A DNA stretch of 64,000 nucleotides from positions 310,001-374,000 of the forward strand of contig JAECYW010000032.1 of NCBI GenBank assembly GCA_023014335.1, given 5' to 3'. The position numbers and the translations under genes are program-made. How positions within the stretch are numbered: position 1 is the first letter of the stretch; each line of letters opens with the position of its first letter. This stretch comes from Galerina marginata (Eukaryota > Basidiomycota > Agaricomycetes > Agaricales > Galerinaceae). The notes below the pieces were generated by a model, which was given only the letters and a program-made list of their open reading frames with translations, searched no databases and was not told the origin of the DNA. Positions 6,672-34,169 of the stretch are shown one piece after another.

Positions 6672-7944
6672 TCAAATAACGGCCAACTCTGCGAAACTGT
6701 GAAATGTGAGTTTTAGGCGAGACTGTTGATGGATGGGCTTACATGTCGAGTATTCTTGGTCGGATGTCGGTGCTCGCAGATACTGTGGTTATTGTGGTAG
6801 GGAGCGACACCATTTCCCGAGAATAAAACATCGCTTTCATTTCCCCGGGAGAGTGATACATCCAGGCGAACTTTTATAAACAAAAGAGATGCTCAGCGCC
6901 GAGGTAATATCTTGTGAATGTAAACTCACAGGATTCGACGAGTTGTAGTATTTTCTGTATCCCATCGAGGAGAGAATCATATCTCCGATGAATTCGATAT
7001 ACCGCTGGACGGAGGCCACGGAAATGTCGGCCAAATATATTGGGAATATGAAGATAATATCTCCGATAACCTTAAAATCAAAGGTAAACGAAAGATGATG
7101 GACTTCGTATTTACCGTTCGCAAATTTCTTTTCAAGGTCAACAGCCTCAGCTATAATGGACGTTGCACGTTCCTCCGTTGGCTTCCCGTCCAAGTGGTGG
7201 AAAAGAAGGCAGACAAAGTCAAGATATGATTCGTTATCGGCCTTGATTTGAGAGTAAGCGTTGTCCAAACCGACCAAAAGTCCGTCTATTATGATGGAAG
7301 ATAGTATACAGGATATGGAAGTCGAAAACAGACCATGAACGGCCGCTAGTGCAACTATCAAGTCGGAAAATGGTACGTTGTGGTTGTCCAACCACACGGA
7401 TGACCAATCGACCTTCGTTTGTAACGACCTGGATGCTGATACATGAGCTAAGGCTATTGAATGGTCATTCTCGTCGGTTAAGAGGCTTGAAGCAAATTTG
7501 GATATTGCTTCGATATGTGAAGTCTTTTCCCTGTCAGATACGTCCAAGTCTTTTCTCGTACAGGGTACAAATCTAGGGCTTACATCATAGCTTGAAAGCC
7601 GAAGAAACAACGCGCTTCGGGTATAGTAACCCTAGTCGCAACAGCGGTGAGGAGTTTGTCGTGGAGGGTACGAGTCTCGTAGAGAAAGCTAAGTGCAAGG
7701 GTTATGCTCTGTTTCTCCACGTCCATGAGAATGGTGTTCCAGTCGTTGACATCGTATTGTGTATCGTAAGTATCTGCAATCCAAAACGTTCTCGTAGACT
7801 CTTTGTAAGCCCTCCAAATCTTTAAATACGGATACTTCAGTACAATGCGAACAATGATTGAACGATTGACTTGACTGCGGGGTGTTTTATGGGAAATAAC
7901 GAACGCTTCCGATTATCATCGAGTAAGGTAGTTTCTGTGTTCAT
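6672..7944 (-). CDS. Ribonucleotide reductase small-subunit (R2)-like pseudoenzyme, copy 1
   Basis: Six exons by eye, ATG at 7942-7944, with a stop at 6672-6674 if the last intron is spliced or near 6738 if not. R2 hallmarks in order: LFPIKHPA, IWRAYKESTRTFW, IPEARCFFGFQ, SDLIVALAAVHGLFSTS, ADNESYLDFVCLLF, IIAEAVDLEKKFA, QRYIEFIGDMILSSMGY and SSNP. Active R2 carries a di-iron site and a tyrosyl radical that serves R1. Here, in mouse R2 numbering, D139 is kept. E170 is kept, though with one extra residue before the His. The Y177 position is Ile, E233 is His, E267 is Asn and H270 is Tyr. It is about 340 residues, shorter than typical eukaryotic R2 (near 390) because the N-terminal extension is missing. 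It is the most diverged copy and probably catalytically dead. Confidence 0.83.
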
Positions 7945-8454
7945 TGTTTACTCGAGATGTTTTCCTATCGTAAGGTGATACACTTTATATATGTCGTTGA
8001 CTCAGACCGACGAAATCTGCGAGATAGCCGACGGTGAGATCAAAAATCAAATGCAACCACACAGTGAGATTTGCACTTGTTTGACTCAATCCCACGTCTG
8101 CGTGCGTTGAGCCGTAGTAGTTCCCATCGAGCACTATTCGCCATAAGGAAAATTTACTTCGTGTCCCGTTAACTATTGTACTCAAAATAGATTCCGATCA
8201 TGTGGTGTTTGGCTTAAGCTGGCAGGAAAATTTTGAAAGAATGATTTTCGCCTTAGTAATTTACGGAGTTACATGAGAGCCAAAAAATTATCGACTCAAT
8301 AAAAAATTTGTACGCGTGGTATTTGTGGAGTTGCTATCAAAAGTTCAAGAATTATTGTAAAGAACGGCAGTGGTTGCAGTAGACGAAGGCATTGGTAAGG
8401 CGAAAAGACAGAGAGGCATAGAAAGGAATCGAAATTCCGAGTCAATTCACAATA
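7945..8454. other. Intergenic stretch upstream of R2-like copy 1
   Basis: A 66-codon open frame on the minus strand (7985-8185) reads like protein but has no recognisable match and no clear splice partner. Otherwise it is AT-rich, with no element that can be named. Confidence 0.4.
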
Positions 8455-9767
8455 TCAGCGTCTATTCTCCTTATTCCCTTTCCCTCGATTCTTGTAGTTA
8501 CCTCCATTCCTGGTCGCGACTTCACGAGGAATGTCATCTTCTTGTTCGACCATGTCGAAGTCTGTCTCCATCGCCTGTCTCTTGCTTGATCCCAAGATTC
8601 TGTCTGATATCTCCTCAGACGGACGTTTCAGAGGTCTGGATGGTCCTGGAATTGTCGTTAAATTTATGTCATTCCGTATGAAAATCACTGACAACTGACC
8701 GTCTATAACAGCCACAGGCCCTCCAGGCTCGAGGGACGGGAGGGTTTCATCATGAGGTGGGAACATTGCCGGATCTGATTTCGAAGTGAGGTGTTCTGGA
8801 AGCTTACCCACGCGGATAAGCTCGATCGGGATAATTTCCGACGTCCAACCATCCCCGGTGACGGAAAATCCAATCTTGCATGACATCCATATTATGTCGT
8901 TGGGCTGGAAAGTTGGATTGTTAGTATCCTCTAGTTTTCTTAATATCCCGTCGGTAACGTCGTAATATTTAGGCCTGTCTGGGTTCGGAACTTGAAGCGT
9001 GTCGGCTTGATTGTCCATCGCATACATGATCCAAGGGTGAAGCTCGTAAGGCGCGCTGAAGTCCTCGCCATCTTTGGTGTTGTATGGCGTCCGTTTCGTA
9101 AACAACTTGGCTGAAACGACATACTTTTGTCGGGCAGATGCAACTTTACCGTTCTGCCACGATTTCCGGTTTCGTTTTGCTTTATTGAAGCCTGGCTGAG
9201 CGCTGACGTGGTCCTCCAATGCCTGATATTTTATAAGACTACAAATTTTGACAAGAACAAGAATATTTACTTGAATGTGGTCCCATATGGTGGTATCTAG
9301 CGAGGTATCGAATGCGTAAGAAAGTTCGCACTTGAACGACGGGGTGTCCTGGCTGAATCGAAGTAATATGAGACTGAGATGCGATAGAAGAATTAGAACG
9401 TACATCCGATTCTCGGGAAGTCCCTCCGGTGCTTCAAAACCTTCCGGGACGTAATTTCCAGTTTCCAAGTCGCACTTCCATTGCCAAATTCCAGCGTGAA
9501 CGAGTACAGCAACTTTGTTCGTGTCCTTGGTATATAACTGTGCCCCACCCCCCCACGAAAAAAATATAGGTCAGATTCTATGATAATGACAAAGTAGTGA
9601 AATGAACTTGCTATCCAGCGCGAATTAGAGGAACCAGGAGCCACCACGACAAGTGGCTCATCTGAATCAAGTGATGCTACGGCGTCAGCGAGGGTTATCT
9701 TGTTCTCTCGGAAGCGTTTTCTTTGCCATTCGCCAACGAGATCCAATATCTCTTGTGTGTGTGACAT
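8455..9767 (-). CDS. Uncharacterised basidiomycete-type protein
   Basis: The start MSHTQEILDLVGEWQRKRF (ATG at 9765-9767) is followed by at least three further exons. Clear introns fall near 9364-9415 (donor after ENRM) and near 9223-9270 (after DHIQ). The C-terminal exon is long and open to 8455. Visible blocks include LHPWIMYAMDN, YYDVTDGILRKLEDTNNP and NDIIWMSCKIGFSV. The tail is basic and probably nuclear-directed (RPLKRPSEE, then GGNYKNRGKGNKENRR). The joint between exons 1 and 2 crosses a poly-G/poly-T stretch near 9540-9570 and does not close in frame by eye, so either a small indel or an unusual site is present. The pattern recalls a lineage-expanded agaric family of unknown function, from memory only. 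Confidence 0.6.
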
Positions 9768-10182
9768 ATAGTTATCAAAACGAGGGTTTAGTGGATTGCG
9801 CTTGAGAGGGGAAAATGGGAGGTGAGGGAAAGCGGACGAACGTCGACACGATTTTATAGTACTCTGGCGTCCGAACGACTTGTTGTTTTTTTTTCGTAAT
9901 CTGCACAGTTTTGAACCCAGTTTCGCCAAATGAACGGAAGGAATCCGATGATGTCCTTGCACGAAATGTAGTCTATACCCACGGTAATAACATAACCAAT
10001 CAAGTGGCTATTATTACGCGACGGGAGTTTATATACAGGTAAACAAATGCATACATTGACGTCAATTGGCTCAAATGTTCCCTTCACATTCCATCGATTT
10101 AGAACTTCTGTTTTTTGGTCGTAGTGTCGAAAAAGTTAAATGGGCATGTAGAAGAAGAAACGACGGTATCGTTACCATTCTT
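9768..10182. promoter_or_regulatory. Shared divergent promoter region
   Basis: About 415 bp separate the start of the minus-strand unknown gene (9767) from the favoured start of the plus-strand F-box gene (10183), so both must use this stretch. No single box stands out. Confidence 0.4.
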
Positions 10183-11437
10183 ATGATGCCCGTCGACCTT
10201 GATCTTACTTTTTTCTCGTCGTTACTGTGTATGCCTGATCACATCATACTCCGTATACTCTCATTCTGTTCGCTCGAGCAGCTTTTAGCGCTGTCCCAAG
10301 CTTCTTGGACAACAAGGCTTTTTTCTAGGTTCTATATGACCCGCGTATGGAGTTTCGAACTTAAATTTCGACCATGGTTTTCCGATCCGAGCGGCTTTCA
10401 GGATTTATTACACCGCTGCCATGCGATAGTCTCCGGATCGCAGGCCTTACAGTTTTTCGACAGAACGAACTACCCCGAAAGTGACATGGATATATATGCC
10501 CACCACTCTCAGGTCAAGTCTATATCCGCGTGGATCAAACATCAGGGGTACCAGCTCGTTGGTGGCAGCGCTCGTAAGGATGTCAAGGACGCTGTTGCAC
10601 TCTACATGTCCTCGAAAGATCGGCGTCCGGGAACAGGTCCACGGTCTTTGCCCTTTTCACAACCACCAAAGCGGTCAAAGGCGAGTTCAATCACCATCAT
10701 TATGAACTATATCAAGACGGAAAGGATGTGGGATGGGAAAGTTCGTAATAGAAAGGTGCAGATTATCGGGTTAGAGGTTGGTCCTATATATCACGTTTTG
10801 AACGAGTTCCATTCCAGTGAGTTTTGCTTCGTAAATTGTCATTATTACTCGAGCCTTGACTCATTGGTCTGGTTAGCGGCTGTCCTGAATTTTATATCGG
10901 CAACAATGGCAGTTTCCCTCTTCCCAAAGGCCACTTTCTTAGATAGGAAGTCCTACATTCTTCGTGATCGAGCAATGGACGGGGTATCTAAACCCGTCTG
11001 GATGTCTAAATACGAAGGACGAGGATTTAAACTCGTCGATGTCGAGACTGATCTCCAAGTGCTAGAGGACTTATGCGGGAAGCGAAGTACCAGGGATCAG
11101 TTCTGTTGGAAGATACCGTTGGTAGGTGAGTAACCCGCTCTTCTGGACCTTGTTACTCCTGTTTATCAAATTGACTTACTATATTACAATTCAATCTAGT
11201 AGGTCCCGAAGAGTCTGAAAGAGTTCGCGAAGAACGAAAGTATCTCTCGGTTCCCTTCAAAGTGATTCAGATACCACAGGCAGGGTGTTATGCAGGTTCT
11301 AAGCTGAGAGTGATTAAACCGCTGCGACGTATGTAAGTCGTATTGTTAAATTACTGTTCCTTTCATTGAACCTCCCTTCCAGAAGATGTAGTTCAGAAAT
11401 TAAACAGCGTCCGAAGACGGTTGTCGGCGATAATTAA
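10183..11437 (+). CDS. F-box-like protein with nucleotidyltransferase-like core
   Basis: The favoured start is the tandem Met at 10183 (MMPVDLDLTFF); the frame is open back to 10066. An F-box-like N-terminus (MPDHIILRILSFCSLEQLLA) is followed by a block near residues 85-105 with SGSQALQFF and PESDMDIYAHH. This resembles the GS...DxD core of nucleotidyltransferase-fold proteins. Later blocks include VLNFISATMAVSLFPKATF and DGVSKPVWMSKY. Introns at about 10816-10872 (phase 1) and 11127-11200 join cleanly, and a last small exon ends at the TAA 11435-11437. F-box proteins are substrate receptors of SCF ubiquitin ligases. Whether the DxD pair is catalytic here cannot be told. It is divergently paired with the unknown gene at 8.5-9.8 kb. 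Confidence 0.65.
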
Positions 11438-11796
11438 AGCGTTTAGAGACTCGCTACCGTAGTTAGACAGCTCGGCCTGACAGAAATATATCGCTTCACT
11501 TCATTATTCTGTGACTCTGTACGTGATATGGTCTTACTGGCTTCCCTGCATACGTATTTCGCGTCAGAATCCCAATGACTATATTCCCAATGGGAAAGCC
11601 GTGTGTCGCCAAGCAGAGCCAAAGTCGCACTGGTTACATGTATTTGGCTATGTGAATCGGGATCTCCCTTCGGGGGAAAATGACAATTACATGAGTAGAG
11701 TACATAATGTCGAAACGTCAAGGAAATAACGGACTCGTTTCACTGCCTAGGGTAGCCGTGGTTCTATCTCTGTACTCAAATTTGTAATTACGATAT
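11438..11796. other. Intergenic stretch
   Basis: Short open frames on both strands (about 11443-11729) overlap each other and show no domain. This is probably the 3' flank of the F-box gene plus the promoter of R2-like copy 2. Confidence 0.5.
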
Positions 11797-13091
11797 ATGG
11801 CACAGAATGCTTCTGTGGAGCCTATACTGGCCAATGACAGGAGGTCCTCCCTTTTCCCGATACAATACCCAGCGGTATATAGAGTTTCTCGTGTTAACGT
11901 CAGTTAAGAGCTAACTTTACTGTTCAAAGATATGGAGGGCCTACAAGAGGTCAGTGAAAAAGTTTTGGATAGCCGATTGCCTCAAATTGTCCGCGGACGT
12001 TGAAGACTGGGCCACACTTACGGGGGACGAAAGGCGAAGCACTTTATTTTGCATTTACTTTCTAGGAGAAACTGGCCGGTTACATCAGACAATTCTGTGC
12101 GATATCGCCTATGCAATAACCGCTCCTGAAGCACGTTGTTACTTTGATTTCCAATGCATAATGTGTGTCTCCTGATTCCATTTCACCGTTAGGAAGCTTG
12201 ACATATCGCTCACAGGGAGAATATCCATGCGGAGGCGATATCTAAATTGCTTTCAACCATTGTTACCGGAGACACTGAAAGATACTGGCCTTTAATTTGC
12301 GAAACAGGGTTGAATGCTTTCGCTGATAAAGCCATTTGGTCGACAAAGTGGTCGGAAGACCTTGACGCCCCCTATGGGGAACTTCTTGTCGTACTCGCAG
12401 CTATCAAAGGCGTGTTTTTGTCTTCAATTTCATGCATGCTCTCCTGGCTTTCGGAACAAGGCTTATTAGAGGGTTTGGAATATGCACATACCCTTATCAA
12501 GACCGACAATGACTCCCATGTCGAGTTTATTGCCCTTCTAGTGCATCATTTACGGATTAAGCCATCGGAAGAGCGTGTGATGAAAATAATAGCGGAAGCA
12601 GTTGACCTAGAGAGAGCCTTTGCGACAAGTTAGTAGAAAGTGACTTCGAAATTTAATTTTATTCGTGCTGACTTGGGAATATTGCGTAGATATAATGTCT
12701 GTCTGTTCCTTGGACATGGAGTTAGATACGATTCATCAATATACAGAGTTCACAGCGGACACGATACTTTCGTCCATGGGATATCCAAAATTTTATGGAT
12801 CCCCACAGCCATCGGGAACATATCTGGTACAATTTTCTGAAACATTTCTGTTCTTGATAATTTATAGAGACACCGTACAGATTCATTACTTTCATTGCCT
12901 GCCGGGAGAGGAGAGGGCCAGAAGAATTGTCATCGACATGGAAACAGCATACTCCATCAACGAAGAAGAACACGCAAGTGGGGTATTTAAACCCTTAATA
13001 TATGATATGTGAGTAACTTTTCCGCCTTTGCTATCGGGTTGATGGAATGGTATTCACATATGCCAGATTTACTGAGGAACGCATCGTTTGA
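11797..13091 (+). CDS. R2-like pseudoenzyme, copy 2
   Basis: ATG at 11797 (MAQNASVEPILANDRRSS), then LFPIQYPA, an intron, IWRAYKRSVKKFW, ITAPEARCYFDFQ, an intron, MENIHAEAISK, VVLAAIKGVFLSS, TDNDSHVEFIALL, IIAEAVDLERAFA, HQYTEFTADTILSSMGY, and a C-terminal block with METAYS. In mouse R2 numbering, D139 is Lys, E170 and H173 are kept (ENIH), the Y177 position is Ile, E233 is Lys, E267 is Asn and H270 is kept. The last coding block ends LIYDM and then TGA, which lies inside a GTGAGT donor. Splicing it would add FTEERIV and a stop at 13089-13091. It is the only copy on the plus strand. Confidence 0.85.
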
Positions 13092-13525
13092 GAAGCCTAA
13101 GTTAACGGTCGGCTAAACGGTTGGCGAGACTACTAGTAATATTCATGATGTTCGACGTCCCCGCTTTGTTTAGGACTTAAAAGTCGTTGCGACTGTGTAA
13201 TACTTGAAATAATTTTGTGAAAAGAGTCGATTATGTCCAATGAGATTTGAATTTGCTAGCAGTCGCAGATATCAGTAATATCGGCTATGCAGTATGGCCG
13301 GCATAATGGAGAATAAATACGTCTACACTTTCTTTGTTAAATATGAGTCACCGTAGGTATATCTGTCTTGCGCGTAAATGTTTCGATGGCCCCGCTAAAA
13401 TATTTACCAACCCCTAAACTTCTGAAGCGAGTGCACGGAGACATTTTCACTGCGCGAATATTTTAGACTGTCCCGAAAAAAAAAAAAAAAAATATTGCCT
13501 TGTTCCTGGAGAAACTAATGGCCCC
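13092..13525. other. Intergenic stretch, AT-rich
   Basis: No gene is seen. A 15-base poly-A run lies near 13478-13492 just before the short repeats. Confidence 0.5.
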
Positions 13526-13592
13526 CGGAAAAATATTCACGGTGCTCGGAAATATATTCAGTGCGCGCGGAAACGTATTCGGTGCGCGAGTT
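13526..13592. repeat. Three imperfect 21-bp tandem repeats
   Basis: The pattern GGAAAnnTATTCnnGTGCnCG occurs three times back to back. A related half-copy (GTGCACGGAG...CTGCGCGAATATTTT) lies about 80 bp upstream. Confidence 0.6.
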
Positions 13593-13669
13593 TTCTTCTC
13601 TCTGCCCCGAGAATATCTTTCTTCAGACTTTGTCGGTCTGCCGTGCTTCTGTAATGATCCGTTGATTGC

Positions 13670-14940
13670 AATTTCGGCAAACACATCAAAGCGTGGTCAG
13701 TGTTAATTTCCGTTTTCGGCACCTCTCACATTACCCTGCCACGTCCCACTACCCTCATCTACATGGACAAAACGACGCCGAGAACCTTTCCGAGTGCCCC
13801 TCCTCTCCAATGAGGTATGTAGGCCGGAATTTCGAGATCAACGAAGGTTTGATGAGTGGAAATACCCCAGGTACGTCGCAAAAATCAGCCCCGCTTTGCA
13901 GTGAACCTACGTCCCAGCGCTGGTCGACATGTTGCTACCCCATGACACCCCGCGTTTGCCGCGGTATCACAGCAACAACACTCATATGCACCCGCCGTCG
14001 CGTTCAGACTTGCGCCCTGTTTACGAAGAACCTGCGTCCGCCTCGTTAACCATCATGGACATGGTTGACGATGCCATCGTACCGCCAAGGTTAACGTGGA
14101 CGGAGCTGTGTTTCGACGCCTCCCGTATTTTTTGTCGCCGTTAACGCTCCTGCTGGCGAACAACACGGGCTTATATGAGGCTCGTGTTGTGCTGGAGCCC
14201 TCATGTGAGGGGCTCCAGCTGTCAGCAGATGTGTTTTCACGCCTCCTGAATCCTTCGTGGGTGTCGGCATACCGGCTGGCAAGCAGCACGAGCTCATATG
14301 AGGCTCGTGTTGTGTCAAAGTCCTCATATGAGGGGCTCTGACGGCCGGTGGTTGCCTTTCACCACCTCTCGCGGCTTTCGTTTGCGTCAACGTAGTTGCT
14401 GGCAAGCAATACGAGCTCATCTCGTATTGCGCTGGAGTCCTCATATGAGGGGCTTCAGCTGCTAGTGGACGTGTTTTGACGCCTTCCGCAGCATTTGTTG
14501 GCGTCGGTATATGCTGGGACCCGTCATACGAAGGCTTCGGATTCGCATCGACCACCCCCACCACCTGTTTCGCGTAGGGGCCCAAACCCGCCCTCCAGCC
14601 TTCATGGCTGCCGCCTGCCTATCAATTGGCACCCAACGCAAGAGCCTTGAGACGCCCGCGGCCGCGCCTTACCCGTTTCACGAACGGCGCAGGCGTACTC
14701 CCGCAGCCTCAGCCCCCTTTCGTGTCCAAAGCCCACCCTCCAACCCCTCAGGCACCTGCGTTTTGCAAACCGCAACCTTGTATGACGAATGCAGCGCCGT
14801 GGCTCACCGTTTTGCATTGATACAGCACCCATTATCACCCACAAGCCTGCCGTTTTGCGGGCGTTGGCCTGAATGTTCAGCCTCCGACGCTGGCACTGGA
14901 TCAGATGGGGGCTGGTCATTTTATCTACGTTTATAATTCA
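13670..14940. other. GC-richer block with open frames on both strands
   Basis: This block is visibly richer in G+C than its flanks and holds several overlapping frames: plus 13666-14049, 13929-14144 and 14511-14936; minus 14091-14585 and 14602-14919. None matches a family I know. The minus frame at 14091-14585 is a translation of the 123-bp repeats below and repeats a 41-residue motif containing APHMR. The block looks inserted or captured rather than native intergenic DNA, but no ends were found. Confidence 0.4.
14151..14520. repeat. 123-bp tandem repeats carrying paired hairpins
   Basis: Units begin at TGCTGGC 14151, GGCTGGC 14274 and TGCTGGC 14397, and a degenerate fourth begins at 14512. 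Each unit has two palindromes. The first is a CAACACG...CGTGTTG type stem (CAATACGAG...CTCGTATTG in unit 3). The second is a CTGGAGCCC...GGGGCTCCAG type stem around TCATATGA. The exact 123-bp spacing equals 41 codons, so both strands stay open through the array. Confidence 0.8.
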
Positions 14941-15238
14941 TACAGGAAATTGTTCAATCTGATTCAGTAATTCACTCTCTTTCTTGAACTTAGCGTTATC
15001 ATAAATATATGTTCACCAAAGGTATTGATTACCGAGAGCTTGGTATGGGAACGATGGGTGCCAGACCCTTGGCTAAGATACATTTGATACGACCGTAACA
15101 AGTAATGCCTATTTAAGAGAGGGCGACCTTCGATCGATCAAATTACCCACGCTGCTCAATTGCCGTTCGTAAATTCTGTATGTTGATCAACCAGCTAAAT
15201 TTATGTTAGTCTGGCGTCGGTGTAAAGTGTATTAACAC
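14941..15238. other. Intergenic stretch
   Basis: AT-rich, with no gene recognised. Confidence 0.5.
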
Positions 15239-15858
15239 TTACGATTTCAGTAACATAATAATGAATGAGGTGTCATTGTAAGTAACATCCACTACTTCCT
15301 CGGACACCCCGTACTTGGCGATAATAATGTTGCCTGACCAATTTATGCCGAAAAGTAGTCTGATCGCGGCATTTGGTGGGGCGTTAGGCGTTCCGTTCGA
15401 CACGATCACTCTGTAATCTTCGTCCAGCTTGAAAGATGTCCCGGGCGCGCATGTGATGCGTGTACTCAGCGCACCGTTCGGGAATATGCGAGCAACGTCT
15501 AGGGCATCGTTGGAGGAGGATTGAGACGATGAAAAATACATGAAATCGACTGAGCCGCCAGTAGTAAAAGCTAGGCATAAAGTTTTTCGCGAGTATATCT
15601 GCAGTCAAGTAAATGTCAGACTATCATGAATATCAGGAAAAAAACATATGGTGTAACTGACCGTGACAACATCGTCTGAAAATTGTCGAGCATTGCGCGA
15701 AGTCAGGACGTCCTCGTTGGCGATGTAGTTGGTCCCAGTTCCTGGGTGCTATACCAGGCAATGGTAAGGCTTTGATTACGGTATTAAAATGTTGAATTTA
15801 CCTCTAATAACCACGTTTTTGGGGTCCCGTCTTGGGTCGCGTCGGATTGAGAGTTCAT
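15239..15858 (-). CDS. Small uncharacterised protein, likely beta-rich
   Basis: Three exons: ATG at 15856-15858 (MNSQSDATQDGTPKTW), an intron with a GTAAAT donor after WLLE, a middle exon PGTGTNYIANEDVLTS...DDVVT, an intron at about 15603-15662, then IYSRKTLCLAFTTGGSVDFMYF and on to TSFIIMLLKS with a TAA at 15239-15241. The total is about 165 residues, with alternating hydrophobic and polar stretches typical of beta sheet and no signal peptide. The stop codon lies inside a GTAAGT sequence, so a further exon is possible. I do not recognise the family. Confidence 0.55.
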
Positions 15859-16608
15859 GTTGTAGAATACTTTGAAACTGACGAAGCCGGGTGGGGGAAC
15901 AGGTGTCTGATTCGAGGTTTAAATAGACGGATCCTGCCATCCCGGAAATGGACTCTGAGAATTCATCTGGCACAACTGGTGCTCATAACCGACTGAAAGC
16001 ATGTGTGTCTATCGTCGTATGAAAGGAAGGAATCAGTATTTGTGTGGGTATTCTTCTTCTTTTTTTTTTTTTTTTTTTTTTTTCTCTTGCTTTTGGTTAG
16101 GTACCGAAAGTGTTCCTGATGTGTTGCCCATTGTATTCGCCTATCTGGGATGAAATGGTTATGCGTGACTGTATTTTATTTTACGGAGAGTATCCAAAAG
16201 AGGGAAGCCGGGATCAGAACTCCCCTTCGTTTCTGGGGTAATTGATTGCCGCTCTGATTGATTGATGTCTAAAAGCGCTTATGTACCCCGGCCCAAAATC
16301 TCTCGCGCATCATTTTTATAGACCATGCGTGTCCCCTCATAGCGCGGCGGTACCAGTTCGGTCCGCATCCAACCATTAGTTTGTGTTAGAGCTTATTATA
16401 TACACCGATGGAAGTTAACACGGTATTGTTTCTCAAAGGCGTAATACATGGGAAAAGGTTATCTCGATCTAATCTTTAAGCTATGGAAATACCACGTCGT
16501 CGTTTGACGAGTGACCATCGCATATGTCATCCTAATCTCCCTTTACGTGAGATGATCCTTAAAACTGGTGTGTGTTAAATATAATCGAAATGGGAGGTCC
16601 ACGCGAAC
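15859..16608. other. Intergenic stretch with poly-T
   Basis: No gene is seen. A run of 23 T lies at 16061-16083, preceded by TTC repeats. On the minus strand this would be a poly-A. Confidence 0.5.
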
Positions 16609-17794
16609 TTACAAATCATAGACCTGAGGCCTGATCTCCAGACCCTTCGAACTGCCGAGAGAGTACGCGGTTTCCATTTGTTGAGCAATGTAGCCTGCCT
16701 TCACCTCCCCCGGTAGGTGTTGAATAAAGGGAATCTTTCGAGGAAGGTCATAAAGCGTTCGTACTAATAAAATATCAAACGACTTACAGGATTCGTCACT
16801 TTGTAGTATGTTTCATACCCCAAGGAACGTAATAAAATATCTGCGAGAAATTCTATGTATCCGTGTAATTGCTCCATGGTCACGTCGATATTGATATTCT
16901 GGAATACAACTTGTTGGACGATGAGAACGACTGAACGGTGGAATTGCGGAGGAATATACGCTTACCGGTGCCAAAGTCCTTTTCGAGGTCGACGGCTTCG
17001 GCAACTATCTCGAACACGCGGTCCTGTGACGGCTTCTTTTTAAGGTGGTGGAAGAGAAGGCAGGCGAAATCCACGTGCGATTCGGTGTCTAATGCAATCA
17101 TAGAACTGGTGAAGCTGAGACTGGAGAGTATGTCTCGCTCTGAAATCCATGAGAGCACGCAGAACAAGGAGGAGGTAAAAAGGCTTTTAATGGCTACCAG
17201 TGCAACCAACCGATCGGCGAATGGTATATCAGTATCGTCAGTCCAATTTAAAGCCCAGTGGAATTTTTCCTTGAACGAATGGTCGTCCAAGTCGAGAACT
17301 GGTCGATCTTGATCGTCGGTTAACCGAGAAATAAATTTGGAAAGTGCTTCCGTATGAATATTCTCCCTATTGGAAGAGCTATGAGTGCGAATAAACGAAG
17401 GGATTTTTTACAACGAACGTCATTGTCTGGAAGCTAAAGAAACATCGAACTTCTGGCGCTGTAACTTCGGTGGATATTGCGTTGAGAAGTTTCTCGTGCA
17501 TGGTCTTGTGTGTCGCCTCCAGAAATTTGAGTCCCAACGTAGTTGCCTGCTTCTCCGTGTCATTCAGTTTGTTTTTCCATTCCTCGGCGTCCTCGGAGGT
17601 CTGGATGGTGTCTGCTATCCAAAACGTAGTAACAGCTTTCTTGTAGGCCCTCCAGATCTTTTGAACGGTAACTATATTGAGCTAGGCACGAAATACCGGT
17701 ACTGCGAACTCACCGCGAGATACTTTATAGGGAAAAGCACAAATCTTCGAGGATTCTCCTCTAGAAGTGGTTCGCTCGTTGATTTATCGAACAT
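16609..17794 (-). CDS. R2-like pseudoenzyme, copy 3 (best preserved)
   Basis: ATG at 17792-17794 (MFDKSTSEPLLEENPRR), then FVLFPIKYLA, an intron, IWRAYKKAVTTFW, VTAPEVRCFFSFQ, an intron, MTENIHTEALSKF, DRLVALVAIKSLFTSS, LDTESHVDFACLLFHHL, IVAEAVDLEKDF, an intron, HGYIEFLADILLRSLGYETYY, TNP, an intron, then PGEVKAGYIAQQMETAYS. The coding frame ends VYDL and TAA at 16609-16611, inside a GTAAGT donor. In mouse R2 numbering, D139 is Gln, E170 and H173 are kept, the Y177 position is Leu, E233 is Lys, E267 is Thr and H270 is kept. It is about 340 residues. Its closest relative here is copy 4. Confidence 0.87.
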
Positions 17795-18303
17795 CGTGGT
17801 CTGATATGCTTGAAAATTTCAGATAGTAGAAGACCATTGATGGACGCGGGAGCTTACAATCTATTTTCGACTCTGGGCGTTCGAGTGACAATTTCTGGAG
17901 GCCTAAGTATCGTCACGCATTTTATAAACAAGGGTCGCTACTGGCACGAGTTCCGCCGAGACCGAGCTGTTTATGATCAAACATCGATACTGGCGCGAGA
18001 TCTGATGAAAACGCGATAGTTATCAAACGCTTCAGTTAGAAAGCTAATCCGAAATAGGCAAGTCCGAAGTAAATGATCTCATTGCTTGTCTGTGCGTGGC
18101 GTAATTTGCGTGTGTATTGCACAAAGTAAATGATCGATTTGGCCTCTGGGGTTCTAGTTTGGTGAGTGAACAAAAGATGTCACGTCGTGTTATTCATTAT
18201 ATAACCGACTTTGTCAGTTCGTAGTGACTGATAGGCTATAAAATGGACTCGAACTCGACGCCCGAGTTATCTCAACGTCCGTCCCGATTGTTGTTCACGA
18301 GTT
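17795..18303. other. Region between R2-like copy 3 and the Helitron genes
   Basis: A plus-strand frame at 17810-18019 has no recognisable product. The 5' end of the Helitron should lie here or further left, but no terminus can be fixed. Confidence 0.4.
18237..18243 (+). promoter_or_regulatory. Candidate TATA box
   Basis: TATAAAA stands 67 bases before the ATG at 18304 and about 300 bases before the ATG at 18534. Its position fits a promoter for the spliced small gene or for the Rep-helicase transcript. Confidence 0.4.
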
Positions 18304-18910
18304 ATGGCAACGGTTCGCTCCGTTTTCCTCTTCTGTATACGCCACGCTGATGGCAGGTTGTCGGTCTCAAAGTCTACGTCGACTGTGTACTCAATATCGA
18401 CTACCGGGGGTTTGGCGTCGGGTAAGAGATTTGTTTCTGCATCCCTCTATCCATCCAAGCTCACTCTCCCTTCATCCTGTCGTTGTCCTCATTAAAATAA
18501 CTTAAAAACTGAAACACAATTAAATAAAACATAATGAATTCTAATGTGACTTGTTCGCTGTACTATATTTTTGACTCAGGACTTCCTATTTACCAATATG
18601 TTGATTTACCAGTCTACGGTGTAGAGGAAATGATAAATGTCCTGCGTCTAAATCAATTCTTTCGATTTTATGACGTTTGCGTTGATCCTCGGGACGCGAA
18701 AGCTTATATAAAAGATCCAAATTGTCTGGTTTTCAGCGTGAATATTAACCTTCTTGTCTTTTGGTTCCGATATTTTAGCCAAAAAAATCTACGTTTACTC
18801 TGTTTGTCGCATGGGATGCCCCATTGCAAAGCTACGAAACCGGTAATGTGTCAGATGTTATTTCATCACGTCTGTTTGAGGAGATGCTGTCGTCTTGTCT
18901 ACATTTTTAA
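18304..18910 (+). CDS. Possible spliced small gene at the Helitron 5' end
   Basis: The ATG at 18304 opens MATVRSVFLFCIRHADGRLS. A donor GTAAGA at 18422 joined to the CTCAG acceptor near 18577 continues in frame as LPIYQYVDLPVYGVEEMINV. A second intron at 18738-18778 (41 nt, GTGAAT to TTTTAG) leads to KKSTFTLFVAWDAPLQSYE and on to SSCLHF and a TAA at 18908-18910. This reads more like protein than the unspliced frame, which becomes unusually rich in Cys, His and Arg just here. The stop falls 8 bases before an in-frame ATG (18919) of the helicase frame. The function is unknown; it could be an accessory ORF of the element. Confidence 0.4.
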
Positions 18911-21900
18911 GGCTCGGACGATGCCACGGAGAGGTGTAGAAGCGATGTTCGGTTTGATGATTAGTCCATCTCCCTCGACTTTCACTCCAACGGTTGTCCA
19001 TGAACCGGTCGATATGCAGCACGTTACTGTCAGTACAAATGCGTCGACTGAACGGCTAAATGTTGAAAGCAACCTTGATCATCTATGTCCACCCGACGAG
19101 TTCAAAAAAATCTCGATTATTCGAGAATGGGAAGGCGAAATGAGCACTGAGAGCCTGAGGATGGTAGTATGCGCAGTATGTAGTAAAAGAGTCTCTCAAT
19201 CGGAATCTAACTGGGTTAATGGAGATAGCATCGATCTGACTTTACTTCGTAACAGTTTATTACCCGAGAGGATATTACCCAGAACTTATGACCGTGTCCA
19301 GTATAAGAACGCTATCTTGAACCCTAAAGGCTTGGAATTCACTGACAAAGTTGGACATATAAGGATTTGCGGCAAATGTTACACCTCCCTCCGCTCCTCA
19401 GCCATGCCTAAATTTGCACTGAGTAATTGGCTTTATTATGGCCATGAGTCACTTCCAGCTGTAATAAAGGCCGATTTTGAACAAGCTACATTGTTTGACA
19501 AGAAACTCATCTGTCGAGCGAGAGCTAACTCTATTACATGTCGGTTTAATTCAGGTGGAGGCGAAGAATTAGAGCATTCGAATGGAAATTTGTTGTCCCG
19601 GGCGCGAAAAGGTATCAGGGGAAATGTTATGGTCGCTCCATTGGATGTGATAAAAATGAATCGGATTGTTCCTCCGGTCTCGGACTCTATACGGGACACT
19701 ATGTGTGCAGTATTTGTTGGTGATAAACTACCTAACCGCTCCACAATTCGCAAATATTCTCCAGTGTTGGTGAGGAAATCCAGAGTCAAACGGATGATTC
19801 TATTTTTGCTGAGGTATAATCGCCATTATAAGCCGTCAAGCGAGTTCAATTTCAGTGAAGATAATTTGAACAGTTTATTTGATGGGGAGTTCGACGAAGG
19901 GGTACCTTCTTCTGTCCATCTTGGATTTATTCCAAACAACGATGCTATTGATGCTTCAGTATCTGACTATACATCGAGAAATGTCGATACAGATAATAAC
20001 GACGAACATGTCGACGAACTTCTTATGGAAAATGTTGGATATACACTCGGAGACGACTCCCCTTTGAGTTATGAGACGATGAAAAACCTAGCGCTTGAGC
20101 GCTGTCTCCAAGGAAAACCGTTCATTGTTTCTGGAAAGGGCCCTACAGCCGTCCCGGATTTCCATAATCCTTTTATTTTAACGTGGCTATTTCCTCACCT
20201 TGACCCCTGGGGGATTGGAGGATTGTACCACCCTGGAAGATTAGTAAAAATAAGTATGGAGGAACAGCTACGTCATTTGCTCTTAATTGATGACAGCCCA
20301 TTTGAAAAAGACTCGGAGTTTGCGTTTGTATTCTATAATATCTGCCGGAAATCATTAATTTCTCAGAGTTTACGGTTCAGTGTATCTCAGAGAGTGCACC
20401 GTCAGGTAGTTGAAAATTTGCTCAAAATTGATCCTGAAATATTGGCGAAACTGAACCAAGACTGTGAGAAGGATTTTCAATATAAGCCCACTGACGAGCA
20501 GGAAATTCGTATATTCAAATTATTAGGGTCGCTTCGGCTTATCGCAAAACACGTTCCTGGAAGTGACGGATATAAAACCATGCTCCGGAATGAAATACGA
20601 GCTCTAATTAATTACAGAGGGGCACCGACTTTATTTATAACGCTAAACCCGTCCGATGTGGATCATCCAATTGTAAGATTGCTTGCCGGAGAGAATATTC
20701 AACTCGAAGACATTTCAAGAGGTGAAGATATGACAGAGTGGAAAAGGAAGTTATTCGCCGCTCGAAATCCGTCCGCTTGTGCGAAATTTTTTGATCTCGT
20801 TATTTCAAAATTCATTAAGATAGTCCTTCGCCATGGCAGTGACAGTGCCGGATTATATGGCAAGTGCAGCGCTTATTACGGGACCGTTGAAGCCCAGGGA
20901 AAGGGCACTCTACATTGCCACATGCTAATCTGGTTGAAGGGTCATCCATCTCCACAGGAGTTGCGGAACCACATGGCAGGTTCGGATGAATACACAGAAA
21001 AGGTATTTCAGTGGCTAGAATCAGTAATTAAATGCGAATTCCCTGCAGCCCCAACTCCTGAAATCCAAATTCTGAATTATCCCCGACGTATTTTGCATAA
21101 CGAAAGGGGAGAGCCTCATCCCGGTGTGATTCCTATCCCGTCTGCTAATGTTCATGATAACGAACTCCCAAACTTTTGGAAAGAATTCAACGAGTCGTTA
21201 AGTCGACTCTTATATCAGTACTCGTGGCATGAGCATCAAGCGACCTGTTGGAAGTATCTTAGGCGTGGTCAAGAAAGAATTGATCAGAACTGCAGGATGG
21301 GCATGGATGGTGAAATACAGGAGGTAACTCGACTAGATGAGACTTCGCAATCCATTATTTTGAGGCGTCATCACCCCCGAATAGCTCCCTACACAGACAT
21401 TGTGACGTACCTTCTCCAATGTAATATGGATATAAAATTTGTTGGGTCTGGTGAAGCTGCTAAAGCTTTCCTATACTATGTAACCGATTATATAACCAAG
21501 CCATCTTTATCTGTGCATGCTGGAATGGCAGCTCTGTCATATGTCGTCAAGAAAGTTCATAGTAGAATCCCTGAGGGTTTGAACGGGTGCTCCAACAGTC
21601 AAGCCACAGGTGCTGTGATTAGCGCTGTGAACGGTATGATGGGCCGATTGGAAATTTCACATCCCCAGGTAATGAGCTATCTAGTGGGAGGTGGGGATCA
21701 TTACACGTCCGATAAATTTTCAGTCTTGCAATGGAACGCGTTTCGAAAATTTGGACAAAGTGAAGTAATGGAATCCAGTGGCAGAGACGCGTCAGAGCCG
21801 CAGTCCGCGGAAAACACAGTGGCTTTAGCCTTTGCCTCGAAATCAATCACAGTATCAAACCAGCAGCTTGACTATGTATACAGGGGGCAGCACCCGACAT

Positions 21901-24332
21901 ATTCATCCCTGTGTTTATACGATTTCGTGGCTTTGACTTCGAAGTCTCGCTATGGGAAAAATGTTGATATCGAAACCGGAATTCCAGTGTCTTTTATCAG
22001 TTCCCAGCACCCCCAGAGATATACTCATCATCTCGTTCTGCGACGGGAAAGACATATCCCGGTAATCCTCGGGCCAAGTATACCGAACCCAAATAAATCA
22101 ACAGAAGTCAGAGAAGAGTGGGCAAGGGACATGTTGTTATTATTCAAGCCGTGGCGAAATTTGTCTGATCTTAGGGATCAAAACGAGTCCTGGACAGACG
22201 CATTTCGTCGATACGAGACTGATTTGTCCGAAAAACACAGGAATATTATTGCCAATATGCAGGTTCTGACGGAGTGTAGTGAAGCAAGAGACAATCACCG
22301 ACAAGGAAGACGCATAAGAGAGCGTAACGATCTTATACTTGAAGAAAGCGATGCTGCCTGTCTACAAGATAGCGAAGGACGAGAACATAGTGTCAATTTC
22401 GCTGAAATTTATCACTACGATCCTTTTCGAGAACTTGACGACACGTTAGGAGAGGGACAGAATGATGTTTCGGAAAGCTACGGAATCCTCAGTGGTGAAT
22501 CGTCAAGATTGTTGGATATGTGTTTGCCAGTTAACATGGAAGACCTCGTCGACCCTGCTCGAGAATCTATTAAATTGCCATCCCAAGTATTAGAGTGTGA
22601 TCGAGAAGAATTAGCCTTCCAGATGGCTGTCATGACACGTAAGAGAAAGAGGCTGCACAACGTCGAAGATGAGGATGAAGAGAATGACGACCGGGAATCG
22701 TCAGTTAGACGGCGTATCCAGACTGAGATTCCAATCGTTATTCGGACGGTGTTGCAAGATGGAACGGGGAATCGATCGAACAGAGTCAAAGCTGTAAGGG
22801 TAGCAGACCAGATAATCCTCGAGATGGGTCTACAAAACAATCAAGAGCAACTGAGAGCTTTCAATTTGATTGCCCGTCATTTGATTGAAAGAAAGGAAGA
22901 ACAATTATTGATGCATGTCGCCGGTGTCGGAGGCACGGGAAAATCTCACGTAATCAGGTCGATTGTCCTGCTTTTCGAGAGATTGGACAAACGTAGGGAG
23001 TTGCTTCTTGGAGCTCCGACTGGTATTGCCGCAGTCCTTATACGAGGTCAAACACTTCACTCTCTTATACTCATGACACCCAATAGCAAGTCTAAGAATA
23101 TAGCGCCCCTATCTCGGATTTGGAAACATGTCAAGTTTCTAATAATAGACGAAGTTTCGATGGTAGGGGCAAGATTTTTGAGTCAATTATCAAGCAGAAT
23201 ACGTCAAGCCAGAGGTGATGATATTATAAATCATGGTAAACCGTTTGGAGGGGTCAATGTGATATTCATGGGCGATTTTGCACAGTTAAAACCTCCGAAG
23301 CAATATGCGTTGTACTCAAATGAATTAGTGAAAAACCCGTCATTTGCCGAGTCCCGCAACGAGAAAGGTATCAGCGCCATGAACGGGGCATTTCTCTGGC
23401 GTCAGGTCAATGCTGTAATCGAATTAGTGAAGAACCAGCAGCAGAGTGATGACCCAGTATATGCAGAATTTCTTCAAAGACTAAGGCTGGGACAGTGCAG
23501 AAATGAAGCCGTGCCGCCTCTTAATATATCCGATTCTGCGTACCTACGGAGCCGGTTGATGGAGAACCAAGCTTCTAATCCGTTAGTTCTAGAGGCATTT
23601 AAAGATGCGCCTATTATTGTTGGAAGCAAATCGTTAAGAGATATTTTGAATGTTAAGTTGGTAAAATATCATTCGAAGAGAACAGGATCAGAGTTGCATA
23701 TCTATTACTCGAAAGATTCTTTTAACAAAAAATTAGCCAGCGGACACGTACAGAAAAGATTATGGGATTTACCATCTGCGGTAAACCGTGAGGCGTTCGG
23801 ACGACTACCTCTTTTTGTGGGAATGAAAGTGATGGTTACTGAGAACCTTGCATTCGACGACGGTATTGTAAACGGATCAGAGGGTGTAATCATGGATATA
23901 AAGTTCGATGAAGACTCGAAGGGTCGGAGGTACGCTACTGTAGTTTATGTTAGGATTCCGGGATGTGGGATTCGCGTCGACGGCCTGGCCCATGACGTAG
24001 TTCCCATTTTTCCAGTTGCGACCCGGATTGAGCACAAACCTTTAACTCTGACTGAGGTTAAAAGCAAATCTTTTACGAGAAAGCAATTACCTCTCGTTCC
24101 TGCTTACGTCTTCACGGACTTCAAAAGTCAAGGACGTACACTAGAGAGAGCGATTGTTGACCTCGCTACCGCCAGAGGTCAAGGTGTTTATGTGATGTTA
24201 TCGAGGGTTAAGTCCCTCTCTGGTTTGTTGATCCTTAGGTGGTTTCCCCCAACAAAGATATATCGTAGGCTTCCGGAAGAGTTACGGGACGAACTAGCCC
24301 GCTTATACGGTCTTTCTCTGGCCTCTCTGTGA
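18534..24332 (+). mobile_element. Helitron Rep-helicase gene, uninterrupted
   Basis: One open frame of up to 1932 codons. The likely true start is the ATG at 18919 (MPRRGVEAMFG), because the preceding part may be spliced as a separate gene. Domains in order: a Cys-containing N-terminal region (VCAVCSKR...ICGKCYTSL), the Helitron replication initiator with TLFITLNPSDVDHP, the HUH motif LHCHML in EAQGKGTLHCHML, and the two-tyrosine motif YYVTDYITK (near residue 985). A Pif1-type SF1 helicase follows with Walker A GVGGTGKS, Walker B LIIDEVSMVG, GDFAQLKPPK, and the C-terminal FTDFKSQGRTLERA and VMLSRVKSLSGLL. Rep nicks and joins DNA and the helicase unwinds it during rolling-circle transposition. 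All catalytic motifs are intact with no stop or frameshift, so the copy is recent and may be autonomous. The ends (5' TC, 3' hairpin with CTRR) were not located. Confidence 0.95.
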
Positions 24333-25075
24333 CGGTATTGATCTCCTGGAGGTAGGGGGGGAGGGGGAGGGAGGGGGTAATGAATTTTGCGTCTCTTCAT
24401 GCATATCTCTTGTTGTGTAGTTAGTTGTCGTTTATCGATATAGAGTGAATAAATGCTTCCAGCAATCTTGAGGGCTGTTGAGTCGACATGTGCTAAGCTT
24501 ATCAAAAAAATGCTGCCATCTATTATCGGTGGACGTTTTTACATACATACATCTAAGAAAAAAACGGAGCGCCGAATAAGCGCCCATGCATAATAAGCTT
24601 CAATATTTCCTAACAGATTATTTTTATATAAATGTCATTCGTCTAGGGATTTCTGCTTCCAGATATCTGATCACACTATTTGTCTGAGTCGGTTCATGAC
24701 ATTCTGCGACCCAGCCTTTGGAGCCGTAGTCGCGTCGTGAAGCTAGACTTTAGGGACGTGCACGAATTTACTGACGGACTATAAAGTTGTCCGCTGTTCA
24801 AAAGCACGAAGACAGCTGTGTTTTGTCAGGTGGTATCAAACGGTTAAAACCCAGTGCTAGGTAGTTATGTTTCTCCATGCAACTCAAAAAAAAAAAAAAA
24901 AGTACGCCATATATTCAAATTTCCAAACCGAGAGTATACAAATAACGTCTTTACGACGGAAATGTCCATTGAGTCTGTTAAATACAACCCCTTAAAGGAG
25001 GCTATCTTTGAAGCTATAAGAGCAGCATATCGTGATAGTTTCTCTTTAATCATGCGACATGCAAATTATAGCTCT
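24333..25075. other. 3' flank of the Helitron gene
   Basis: It contains a G-rich run just after the stop (24350-24380) and a poly-A of about 15 at 24887-24901. No hairpin followed by CTRR and then T, the classic Helitron 3' end, was found here. Confidence 0.5.
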
Positions 25076-26307
25076 ATCCCCTTAGCAAATTTGGAATTTC
25101 CATTTAAATAAGCTGTTTCCATTTGCCTCGCAAAGTACCCGACCTTGATCTCACCCGTTATATGCCGCATGAAGGTAAACTTGATGAAGTAAGACCAAAG
25201 CTTGGCAATAAATGTTTAGAAATCTTACCGGATTGGGCAAGCCGTAGTATGTTTCGTATCCAATTGAGCGTAGAATAAGGTCACCGAGAAATTGAATATA
25301 CTGGTGTAGCGACTCGGGCGTAATGTTCGTGATCATGTTTTCGAGTATTTCTATGAAGGCGGCCAAATTTATTAGCGTTATTCATTCGATGGGTATGATA
25401 CGTACCACTTGCAAACTCTTTTTCAAGGTCTACGGCTTCTGTTATGATTTCGTACGCGCGATGTTGTGTCGGTTTGCCCATGAGATGGTGAAAAAGCAGG
25501 CACAAGAAGTCGACATGGGATTCATTGTCGAATCTTATCTTAGAAATAGCCATTCGCATGCCAGGAAGTATATCCTGCGTTGAAATCCAAGAAAGAATGC
25601 AGTATAGCGAGGAAGAAAACAGGCCTTTGATGGCCATCAGTACTATGAGGCGTTCAGAGAACGGAGCGTCAATGTTATCAGCCCACATTGAGCTCCAATG
25701 GAGTTTGTTGGTAAACGATTCAAGGTCGGTCGTTTCAAGCGTTCGAACGGTATCTTGACGGTTAAGGAAACCGAAAGTGAATTTGGACAAAGCCTCAGCA
25801 TGAATATTTTTGCTGTGGTGTGTTGATTAACTAGCGACCGTTATAGTGTGGAGACAATACTTACGCCATAGACTGGAAGCTGAAGAAACACCGAACTTCA
25901 GGCGCGGTTACTTCGCTATACATGTCAATCAAGAGGCTCTCGTGCATGACTTTGTGAGTTGCTCCAAGGAAAATGAGCGCGATGACGGAGGCTTCTTTTT
26001 CTTCATCTGTTATTCCTGTCCTCCATTCGTCTATATCGTCCGCCGTTTCAATGGTGTCCGCTAACCAGAAAGTTTCCGCGGCCTTTTTATAGGCCCTCCA
26101 AATCTACGTCACGTCATTCTGGGTGGTCGATCCAAAGTAGTAACCATCACTCACAGCAAGGTACTTAATAGGGAAAAGCACGAAGCTACGAGAATTATCG
26201 CCGAGTAGCGGCTCCATGAAGGCATCAATTCTTGTTTCCTTGAGATTAAATACTATGTGTCAGTGAATTTCAAGCGGATGGACATAGACACTTACCGAAG
26301 AGCTCAT
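25076..26307 (-). CDS. R2-like pseudoenzyme, copy 4
   Basis: A tiny first exon (ATG at 26305-26307, MSSS) is spliced to ETRIDAFMEPLLGDNSR, then FVLFPIKYLA, an intron, IWRAYKKAAETFW, VTAPEVRCFFSFQ, an intron, AKNIHAEALSKF, ERLIVLMAIKGLFSSS, FDNESHVDFLCLLFHHL, IITEAVDLEKEFA, HQYIQFLGDLILRSIGYETYY, LPNP, and an end with GEIKVGYFARQMETAY...GIEL and TAA at 25076-25078. In mouse R2 numbering, D139 is Glu, E170 is Lys (GAA to AAA), H173 is kept, the Y177 position is Leu, E233 is Lys, E267 is Asn and H270 is kept. Unlike the other copies, its stop is not inside a splice donor. It lies directly 3' of the Helitron gene in opposite orientation. Confidence 0.86.
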
Positions 26308-29570: not shown

Positions 29571-30279
29571 GGTGTGAGGCCTTGACGGTACACGAAAGTC
29601 AGTTGTCTCTCCTTCACCGTCGAGAACATCTTACATGATTAACTGATTCCAGAAATAATATGCAAGACGGTGTTGCGCAGGTTTACGGTGCGTGGACTAT
29701 GACTGAGTCGATACTTTATTCGAACCTGGGGACAAGTCGTCCCAACTATTGCATATATGCTGCGACACAGCTTAAGGTCAAATGATCTGATAATTCGCAC
29801 ATGGGAAGCTGATCATCTTCTTTCGCTTACAGTGAAGTATGGGTTTGCGTTGATTTATTTGCTTCTCTTTATACGGATGTAATTCTGGACCATGTGAATA
29901 TGTTCCCATTTTCGTAAGTTCTTTTGGCTATCGTTTGGGTTTGAGACTATTGATTACGTGTGTATAGGAATTGGAAACAGATTCGTTTCGTTTGTGTTGA
30001 GGTTTACCTTGAATAACATTATAAAGTAATCTGTAATTCGATGGTTCCAATTCTGTATGGCCGACCTAGCAACTTACATCCCCTCCTCTTTTGAAGACAG
30101 GCTCGTTGGTCGGCAAATGAGCGCCACGAACTTGACCAGCTTCGAAGTTTATCCCTTCCCTTCGAGGCTCGTGGAAGTTCAATAGTAAAGTTGAATCCTA
30201 TAAGTCGTTTTTCGCATCTGACTCGTGCTTTAGTCCGTTGGATTCTAAAGGATGCCTTCTTCCTCCGGAACTCCTAGAA
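29571..30279. other. Intergenic stretch
   Basis: No gene is recognised. The part after 30115 may contain a first exon of the next gene (ATG 30117, MSATNLTSFEVYPF), but no clean joint was found. Confidence 0.4.
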
Positions 30280-34069: not shown

Positions 34070-34169
34070 TACTGATGACAACTGTCCTTTTGTGTTTTGC
34101 TGCGTGCAGAGTCCAGGCGCTGCCCGGAGGGGCCATATCACGGGATATCGGTATGGTGGCTTTGATGGC

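Follow-up and report, generated by a model that had tools for sequence, protein, structure and literature searches.

Predicted R2 pseudoenzymes of ribonucleotide reductase accompany a clade of large Helitron-like rolling-circle elements in Galerina marginata

The window analysed here, a 64,000-nucleotide stretch of Galerina marginata contig JAECYW010000032.1 (C26:310001-374000), contains most of a Helitron-like mobile element that carries four diverged genes for the small subunit (R2) of ribonucleotide reductase (RNR), none of which retains the residues of an active enzyme. All data come from one genome, assembled into 43 contigs totalling 69.3 Mb. The four genes are W1 (6739..7944, minus strand, five exons, C-terminus ..RPRILDM), W2 (11797..13012, plus strand, at least four exons, ..FKPLIYDM), W3 (16609..17794, minus strand, five exons, ..RPQVYDL) and W4 (25066..26217, minus strand, five exons, ..GIEL). 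W3 lies head to head with the gene for the Helitron-type protein of the element, RepHel, and W4 has no collinear counterpart in the sister element on contig C23.

The original prediction, made from the window alone, held that the four genes share the R2 scaffold, and both the profile search and the spliced models bear this out. Six exon-level frames of the four genes each exceed the Pfam PF00268 cut-off (60.8-87.3 bits versus 33.6), and the models, built with a purpose-written protein-to-genome aligner, span the R2 fold in order from an EPLL-type start to NP (QP in the 11.8-kb copy). Scanning the whole genome with PF00268 resulted in 47 matches, 5 of which were assigned to two canonical genes and the other 42 to a diverged set of 20 genes at ten loci; 16 of these genes are distinct, and the site counts given below for 20 take in near-identical pairs on contigs C5 and C23. 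The predicted copy number of four therefore holds for the window but not for the whole set, which comprises five genes in the C26 cluster, the fifth just outside the window, and 20 genome-wide. All 20 models are splice-conserved and 19 are free of internal stops, the sole in-frame stop being a TGA in exon 1 of C23_2889 (L016, C23:2889-2890 kb).

Identity between the diverged and the canonical R2s is ~40%. A profile built from 12 of the 16 distinct genes (W1, W2, W4, 309, C34 and C23_3486 entered without their tails, C4 without its run-on and C23_2889 without its exon-1 part) matched structures of eukaryotic R2 (E 1.8e-95) and yeast Rnr4 (E 1.6e-83). The predicted structure agrees in part: modelled with AlphaFold, the frame covering exons 3-4 of W1 (6.7 kb) reached a mean predicted local distance difference test (pLDDT) score of 70.1, with 92 of 264 residues at 90 or above and low values at 1-37, 176-194 and 239-264, largely intron-derived or out-of-frame residues. 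This partial model matches R2 structures (top match 3vpn, E 2.7e-8), a result that is not independent of homology because its alignment consisted of canonical R2 relatives.

In mouse-style numbering, the position of the radical tyrosine is Ile, Leu or Phe in all 20 diverged genes; within the window it is Ile in the 6.7- and 11.8-kb copies and Leu in the 16.6- and 25.1-kb copies, as predicted. The six metal ligands (D-E-H-E-E-H) fare little better, with at most three retained in any of the 20 genes. D138 is substituted or falls in an alignment gap throughout (His or gap in the window copies), and E232 has become Lys in 15 genes, His in three and Asn in one, with Glu left in a single gene. The substitutions first proposed for the window were likewise found in the site table: His (6.7 kb) or Lys (the other three) at E232/233, and Thr (16.6 kb) or Asn (the other three) at E266/267. 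The Glu and His of the ENIH motif are mostly retained in the window copies, Glu being replaced by Lys at 25.1 kb, and the last ligand His persists in three of the four (Tyr at 6.7 kb). All 20 genes keep His172 and Trp103, and 18 keep the Asp preceding E266, which is Asn in C23_2700 and C5_1734; in the alignment of 12 sequences, from which these two are absent, Trp, His and Asp are invariant and may form the known Trp-Asp-His network of R2. Judging from the spliced models, all four window genes encode R2-fold proteins that lack the radical tyrosine and whose metal site is incomplete.

None of the R2 classes compared here accommodates such sites. Class Ia was ruled out by the loss of both the tyrosine and the metal ligand set in all 20 genes. 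Class Ie R2 is metal-free and forms a DOPA radical on a retained tyrosine, and was ruled out because the tyrosine is lost in 20 of 20. Class Ic and R2lox proteins, which use Mn/Fe and are described as keeping a full ligand set despite tyrosine loss (PMC3824934), were ruled out by the missing carboxylate and His ligands.

The whole element at the window measures 39,190 bp (C26:304956-344145). It runs on the minus strand from a 5′ TC end at window position 34145 to the first base of the window and ~5 kb further upstream, where a 3′ hairpin (C26:304956-304982) ends 5,045 bp before that base. Boundaries were placed for three of the ten elements found, the other two being collinear sisters at C23:2668135-2704570 (36,436 bp) and C5:1701796-1738405 (36,610 bp). 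The C23 and C5 elements align in two pieces over 36.4 kb, at 99.2-99.3% identity, between unrelated flanks, and the C26 element is a diverged copy in reverse orientation, with ~69-83% nucleotide identity in collinear pieces. These alignments establish the boundaries of the three copies and a recent second insertion; a static gene cluster was ruled out by the collinear C23 and C5 copies in unrelated flanks.

The 5′ end (TCCC.TGA.ATGGCCCCTCCGGG) has exactly three genome matches at ≤3 mismatches, one per copy, and a local alignment score of 65, versus a maximum of 31 over 50 shuffles. The 3′ end consists of an 8-bp hairpin and a following CA, with 17 genome matches at ≤3 mismatches and none for the reversed pattern; the flanks of these copies diverge beyond the end, and one copy (L051) repeats part of it. 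The 14 hairpin ends located elsewhere (L039-L052), some groups of which share ~95 bp upstream, look like short non-autonomous Helitron derivatives.

Canonical Helitrons have a 5′ TC, a 3′ CTRR with a hairpin ~12 nucleotides upstream, and insert between A and T without duplication, whereas Helentrons combine a terminal 3′ hairpin with T-T insertion. In the Galerina elements the 5′ TC is present in all three placed copies, the 3′ end reads GGCA in 16 of 17 cases (GACA in one) rather than CTRR, and the hairpin lies two nucleotides from the end. No target duplication was seen at C23, C5 or C26, where the flanks are T/T, T/C and A/T, respectively; a T follows 13 of the 17 hairpin ends. Of the Helentron features, the terminal hairpin is present, and T-T flanks are seen at one of the three elements. 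The RepHel strand is opposite to the TC-to-hairpin direction and, because of this and the lack of CTRR, we do not file the element as a canonical Helitron; Helitron-like rolling-circle element is the safe name.

Could the R2 genes instead be an ordinary host cluster, spread by segmental duplication, with Helitrons adjacent by chance? Ends were placed at C26, C23 and C5 and not at the seven single-R2 loci, and an empty insertion site, sought in this genome, was not found, both of which such a history would accommodate. It would not account for exact shared ends in unrelated flanks, a terminal hairpin with further copies elsewhere, or a gene order that is constant at ten loci, and we consider it extremely improbable.

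RepHel (18528..24332, plus strand) is a single frame of 1934 amino acids with DUF6570, Helitron_like_N (HUH) and PIF1 helicase domains in Pfam scans, which covered chosen frames of the element. Its HUH, YxxxY, Walker A and DE motifs are intact by regular expression, as in a canonical Helitron protein, and the ratio of nonsynonymous to synonymous substitution rates (dN/dS) against the C23 copy is 0.075. A search with a 1467-aa part of RepHel recovered at least ten full-length relatives including the query (61-100% identity), broken ones on contig C9 and many at ~30% identity; these counts are lower bounds because 32 of 168 candidates were scored. Each of the ten full-length RepHel loci holds a dead R2 within ~6 kb, and all 20 dead R2s are at these loci. 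The genome-wide PF00268 scan found none elsewhere, including beside the ~30%-identical Helitron families.

The arrangement is also conserved. At nine of the ten loci the R2 start lies 1.6-3.1 kb from the same RepHel residue, head to head; at the C1 locus, RepHel is displaced by ~6 kb and turned. The order R2, orf121, F-box gene, orf371, in the same relative orientation, recurs at all ten, and in the C26, C23 and C5 elements extra R2 copies lie between these core genes, so that an element holds as many as five divergent R2s. Both trees, that of RepHel and that of R2, place C26 with C23 and C5, join C4 to C29 and unite all five; C34 and C23_3486 form a pair in the former and group with C14 in the latter, for which the program warned of long branches. 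Every dead R2 found is tied to one RepHel clade. The "clustered family" of the original prediction is apt in that several copies stand side by side, but it is not a static cluster: the genes are companions of one Helitron-helicase clade on mobile elements. Two RepHels of Gymnopilus dilepis (P0240 and P0241, 60% and 59% identity) nest inside the R2-bearing clade of this genome and, for this reason, dead R2s may exist unannotated in that species. On C9 (C9:460000-525000, G000) there are about three broken relatives of the element with pieces of RepHel, F-box gene, orf371 and orf121, several with stops; the PF00268 scan gave no R2 match in these arrays.

Among the core genes, orf121 (15239..15604, minus strand) encodes a conserved protein of 121 amino acids, one per element, that is stop-free at all ten RepHel loci and has 26 invariant columns in nine sequences. 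None of the nine matched Pfam, no significant match was found in the PDB, and a single-sequence fold reached a mean pLDDT of 36. The F-box gene (10060..11133, plus strand; PF00646, 22.0 bits versus a cut-off of 20.5; dN/dS 0.145) has matches at all ten loci and on C9, and four more elsewhere with 30-34% identity. The third member, orf371 (8455..9570, minus strand, 371 amino acids; dN/dS 0.119 against C23), is also present at all ten loci, although stops, which may reflect introns, interrupt all nine of its matches beyond the window; a PDB search gave no useful match.

The R2 genes show purifying selection. For the four testable pairs between the C26 and C23 elements, dN/dS was 0.139, 0.124, 0.162 and 0.244, with upper bootstrap limits of 0.18-0.35 and synonymous divergence (dS) of 0.95-1.15, while the introns of the same pairs are only ~48-72% identical. 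For the other element frames tested the range was 0.05-0.23, with a kinase-like piece as the one exception (0.40). Over 1165 codons the C23/C5 pairs show 9 synonymous changes and 8 others, too few for a test. The low ratios suggest that the R2 proteins are used, most likely by the element. Together with the R2 fold and the dead site, they sustain the pseudoenzyme reading of the original prediction, which had proposed purifying selection between copies as support for function, and along with splice conservation they disfavour plain pseudogenes. Were the R2 copies cargo that hitch-hikes without function, the in-frame stop of C23_2889 (1 of 20 genes), the decay of some C-terminal tails and the broken C9 relatives without an R2 match would be expected. 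Such a reading is nonetheless highly unlikely in view of the dN/dS values beside poorly conserved introns, the 19 of 20 models without internal stops, the conserved splicing of all 20, and the presence of R2 at every full-length RepHel locus found.

Intron positions point to the source of the genes. The first three R2 introns have phases 0, 2 and 1 at matching positions in all 20 genes, and the first and third (phases 0 and 1) are also found in host canonical R2, from which we infer that R2 was taken up as intron-bearing DNA. The two canonical host genes lie head to head at C1:1889000-1894500 (L009). The one on the minus strand has a one-base frame break in the assembly, possibly a sequencing error, and is 91% identical to Coprinopsis cinerea R2 over the compared part, the best of 120 compared; the second has an open frame and is 81% identical to its best match.

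Beyond this genome, a first protein search gave 684 passing matches, and all 120 of those listed have the Tyr motif; of 119 matches to the 12-sequence profile, 117 have all seven active-site residues, one is partial and one is a Mycena crocata variant (P0180) that keeps the radical Tyr, with Gly in place of the Asp ligand and Lys in place of one of the Glu ligands. Dead R2s of other species were not found among the matches listed, the search requiring shared five-residue words, and the protein database searches reached no close orthologue. Kinship with viral R2s is not favoured, as 76 of 76 R2 loci found in IMG/VR have the full active site; no RepHel relative was found in IMG/VR, and a search of a phage collection led nowhere. 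The dead R2s do not group with two yeast R2s in a tree that does not contain Saccharomyces cerevisiae Rnr4 and is weakened by long branches. The comparison with Rnr4 made at the outset is accordingly fair as a functional analogy but gains no backing from this tree as ancestry.

The C-terminus bears on what the dead R2s might do, since the tail of canonical R2 is described as docking on the large subunit, R1 (PMC2900304, PMC9221315). A terminal [DEN][FLM] is present in 12 of the 16 distinct dead R2s, against a composition expectation of ~0.03 per gene; the end is DF only in C14, C1_2522 and C23_3486, and NF in C23_2889. Among the 120 canonical relatives in the matches listed, the tails are EDF (80), DDF (20), ADF (11), EEF (8) and other (1), and the herpes R2 tail ends NDL. 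Vaccinia R2 is reported to function with host R1 in a manner requiring its C-terminal seven residues, and an inactive point mutant of it to be dominant negative (PMC2900304). The tails kept in 12 of 16 genes and the vaccinia precedent favour docking, and the dead R2s probably dock on host RNR and tune the supply of deoxynucleoside triphosphates (dNTPs).

Our preferred explanation, advanced with moderate confidence, is that a large Helitron-like rolling-circle element captured R2 from the host, and that the gene lost its activity but stayed in the element core, encoding a product that docks on host RNR. An ancestral element would have taken up an intron-bearing host R2 gene, which then would have lost its radical and metal chemistry while keeping the R2 fold and, mostly, the docking tail. 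During element replication the protein may bind host R1, and perhaps pair with host R2, shifting RNR activity and dNTP supply to the benefit of the element. R2, head to head with RepHel, may share its promoter, and the F-box neighbour could contribute targeted protein degradation. Dominant-negative or decoy action would fit slightly better than activating action. At about even chances we place the broader proposal that giant, multi-gene rolling-circle elements of Agaricomycetes form a class of their own, with a core, inherited vertically, of RepHel, R2 pseudoenzyme, orf121, F-box gene and orf371, in which the dead R2 couples replication to the host dNTP pool or neutralises a host factor on single-stranded DNA.

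A number of observations weigh against the preferred explanation. The tail is lost or overrun in 4 of the 16 distinct genes (C26_309, C23_2700, C23_2691 and C4), the reading frame continuing past the motif in C23_2691 and C4, and in the element-rich clade its F has become L or M; moreover, the tails were identified by eye, for C34 in a frame with no splice modelled, and the matches are not independent because ancestry is shared. Herpes simplex virus R2, whose tail likewise ends DL, is said in PMC2900304 not to pair with host subunits. The dS values of ~1 are near saturation, a point that four further R2 pairs had reached, so that they yielded no ratio. Congruence between RepHel and R2 distances is modest (Spearman 0.49, 138 of 5000 permutations; 0.35 and 403 of 5000 without the C5 copy), C14 is placed differently in the two trees, the RepHel tree putting it with Gymnopilus dilepis, and one of the ten RepHels, that of C4, has an internal stop. 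The missing empty site counts here as well.

Two other functional readings were weighed. As an activator, the dead R2 would be a β′ partner like yeast Rnr4 that forms pairs with host R2, aids its cofactor assembly or stability, and raises dNTPs to feed rolling-circle synthesis outside S phase. The retained fold and, in most copies, tail agree with this, as do the canonical host R2 available as a partner and the precedent of Rnr4 and apicomplexan R2_e2, described as non-canonical β subunits of α2ββ′ complexes (PMC3824934). We think it unlikely, as ~40% identity to canonical R2s is far lower than an obligate heterodimer partner would suggest, elements carry up to five divergent copies, and R2 evolves fast relative to RepHel (28-78% versus 66-86% identity between elements). 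That same divergence, the strict pairing with RepHel and the core proteins of no known family suit a scaffold repurposed away from RNR, whose partner might be a host defence factor that acts on single-stranded DNA, or else the RepHel complex; BORF2 of Epstein-Barr virus offers a precedent for herpesvirus RNR subunits repurposed against APOBEC3B. This possibility is comparably doubtful, for a docking-type tail is kept in 12 of 16 genes and the Trp-His-Asp positions are invariant in all 12 aligned sequences. Capture followed by docking on host RNR remains the reading that we prefer.

The remaining element genes in the window are collinear with C23. Two C-terminal pieces of kinase-like genes lie at 4888..5223 (plus strand; PF00069, 22.8 bits, under the cut-off of 31.7; dN/dS 0.05) and, by similarity to the former, at 2230..2610 (minus strand; dN/dS 0.40). 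Beyond W4 are a gene at 28407..28814 (minus strand; dN/dS 0.234), an F-box-like gene at 28815..29630 (minus strand; F-box below the cut-off; dN/dS 0.136), a gene at 30601..31050 (plus strand; dN/dS 0.173) and a 302-aa gene at 31412..32320 (minus strand; dN/dS 0.196). Only five of the ten loci have the last at ≥44% identity, and it also occurs elsewhere, which counts against a larger core; it is located 15-16 kb past R2 at C29 and C4, two loci whose element end was not placed, and a relative outside the element loci (C40:2186787) is 72% identical. Outside the element, window positions 34146-64000 are richer in G+C (0.46-0.59 in 14 of 15 2-kb steps, 0.43 in the other) and show a single frame of at least 250 amino acids.

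Helitrons are known for carrying gene fragments, and we found no report of RNR subunits on them in the titles and abstract openings that our literature searches listed. The capture of full-length host genes by Helitrons is described as exceptionally rare, and fungal Helitrons as reaching ~14 kb, versus 36-39 kb here, a size that is not unique given maize Helitrons of up to 39 kb with gene fragments (PMC6431247). A close likeness is HELPO1 of Pleurotus ostreatus, reported to combine Helitron-like and PIF1 domains in its RepHel, to contain additional genes, to have a hairpin close to its 3′ end and to cause no target-site duplication; it carries one to four captured genes of unknown origin, whereas the Galerina elements have a conserved multi-gene core with a recognisable, inactive R2 (PMC4289320). 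They also differ from fungal Helitrons in ending with GGCA instead of CTRR. Here, a rolling-circle transposon lineage keeps a gene set under purifying selection, including an intron-bearing enzyme subunit turned pseudoenzyme in every copy found.

Among R2 proteins, yeast Rnr4 is chromosomal and the partner of Rnr2, and we know of no apicomplexan R2_e2 on a transposon; compared with Rnr4, the dead R2s are mobile, multicopy and far more diverged. Rnr4 resembles them as an R2-fold protein without key residues of the diiron centre, and R2_e2 as an R2 clade often without the radical Tyr but with a C-terminal motif, although R2_e2 is described as retaining the metal ligands and a conserved C-terminus (PMC3824934). 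To these the Galerina genome adds 16 distinct R2 proteins, a natural series that lacks the radical Tyr and an intact metal site and whose companionship with RepHel suggests that the elements interfere with, or help, the supply of DNA precursors in the host. A parallel for such a role is vaccinia F4, a poxvirus R2 without an R1, by which parasitic DNA supplies an R2 whose C-terminal residues mediate docking on host R1, as those of the dead R2s may do; F4 is active, whereas the Galerina proteins would be naturally dead, like the engineered dominant-negative mutant (PMC2900304). The comparison raises the testable question of whether eukaryotic transposons manipulate host dNTP supply, as DNA viruses do.

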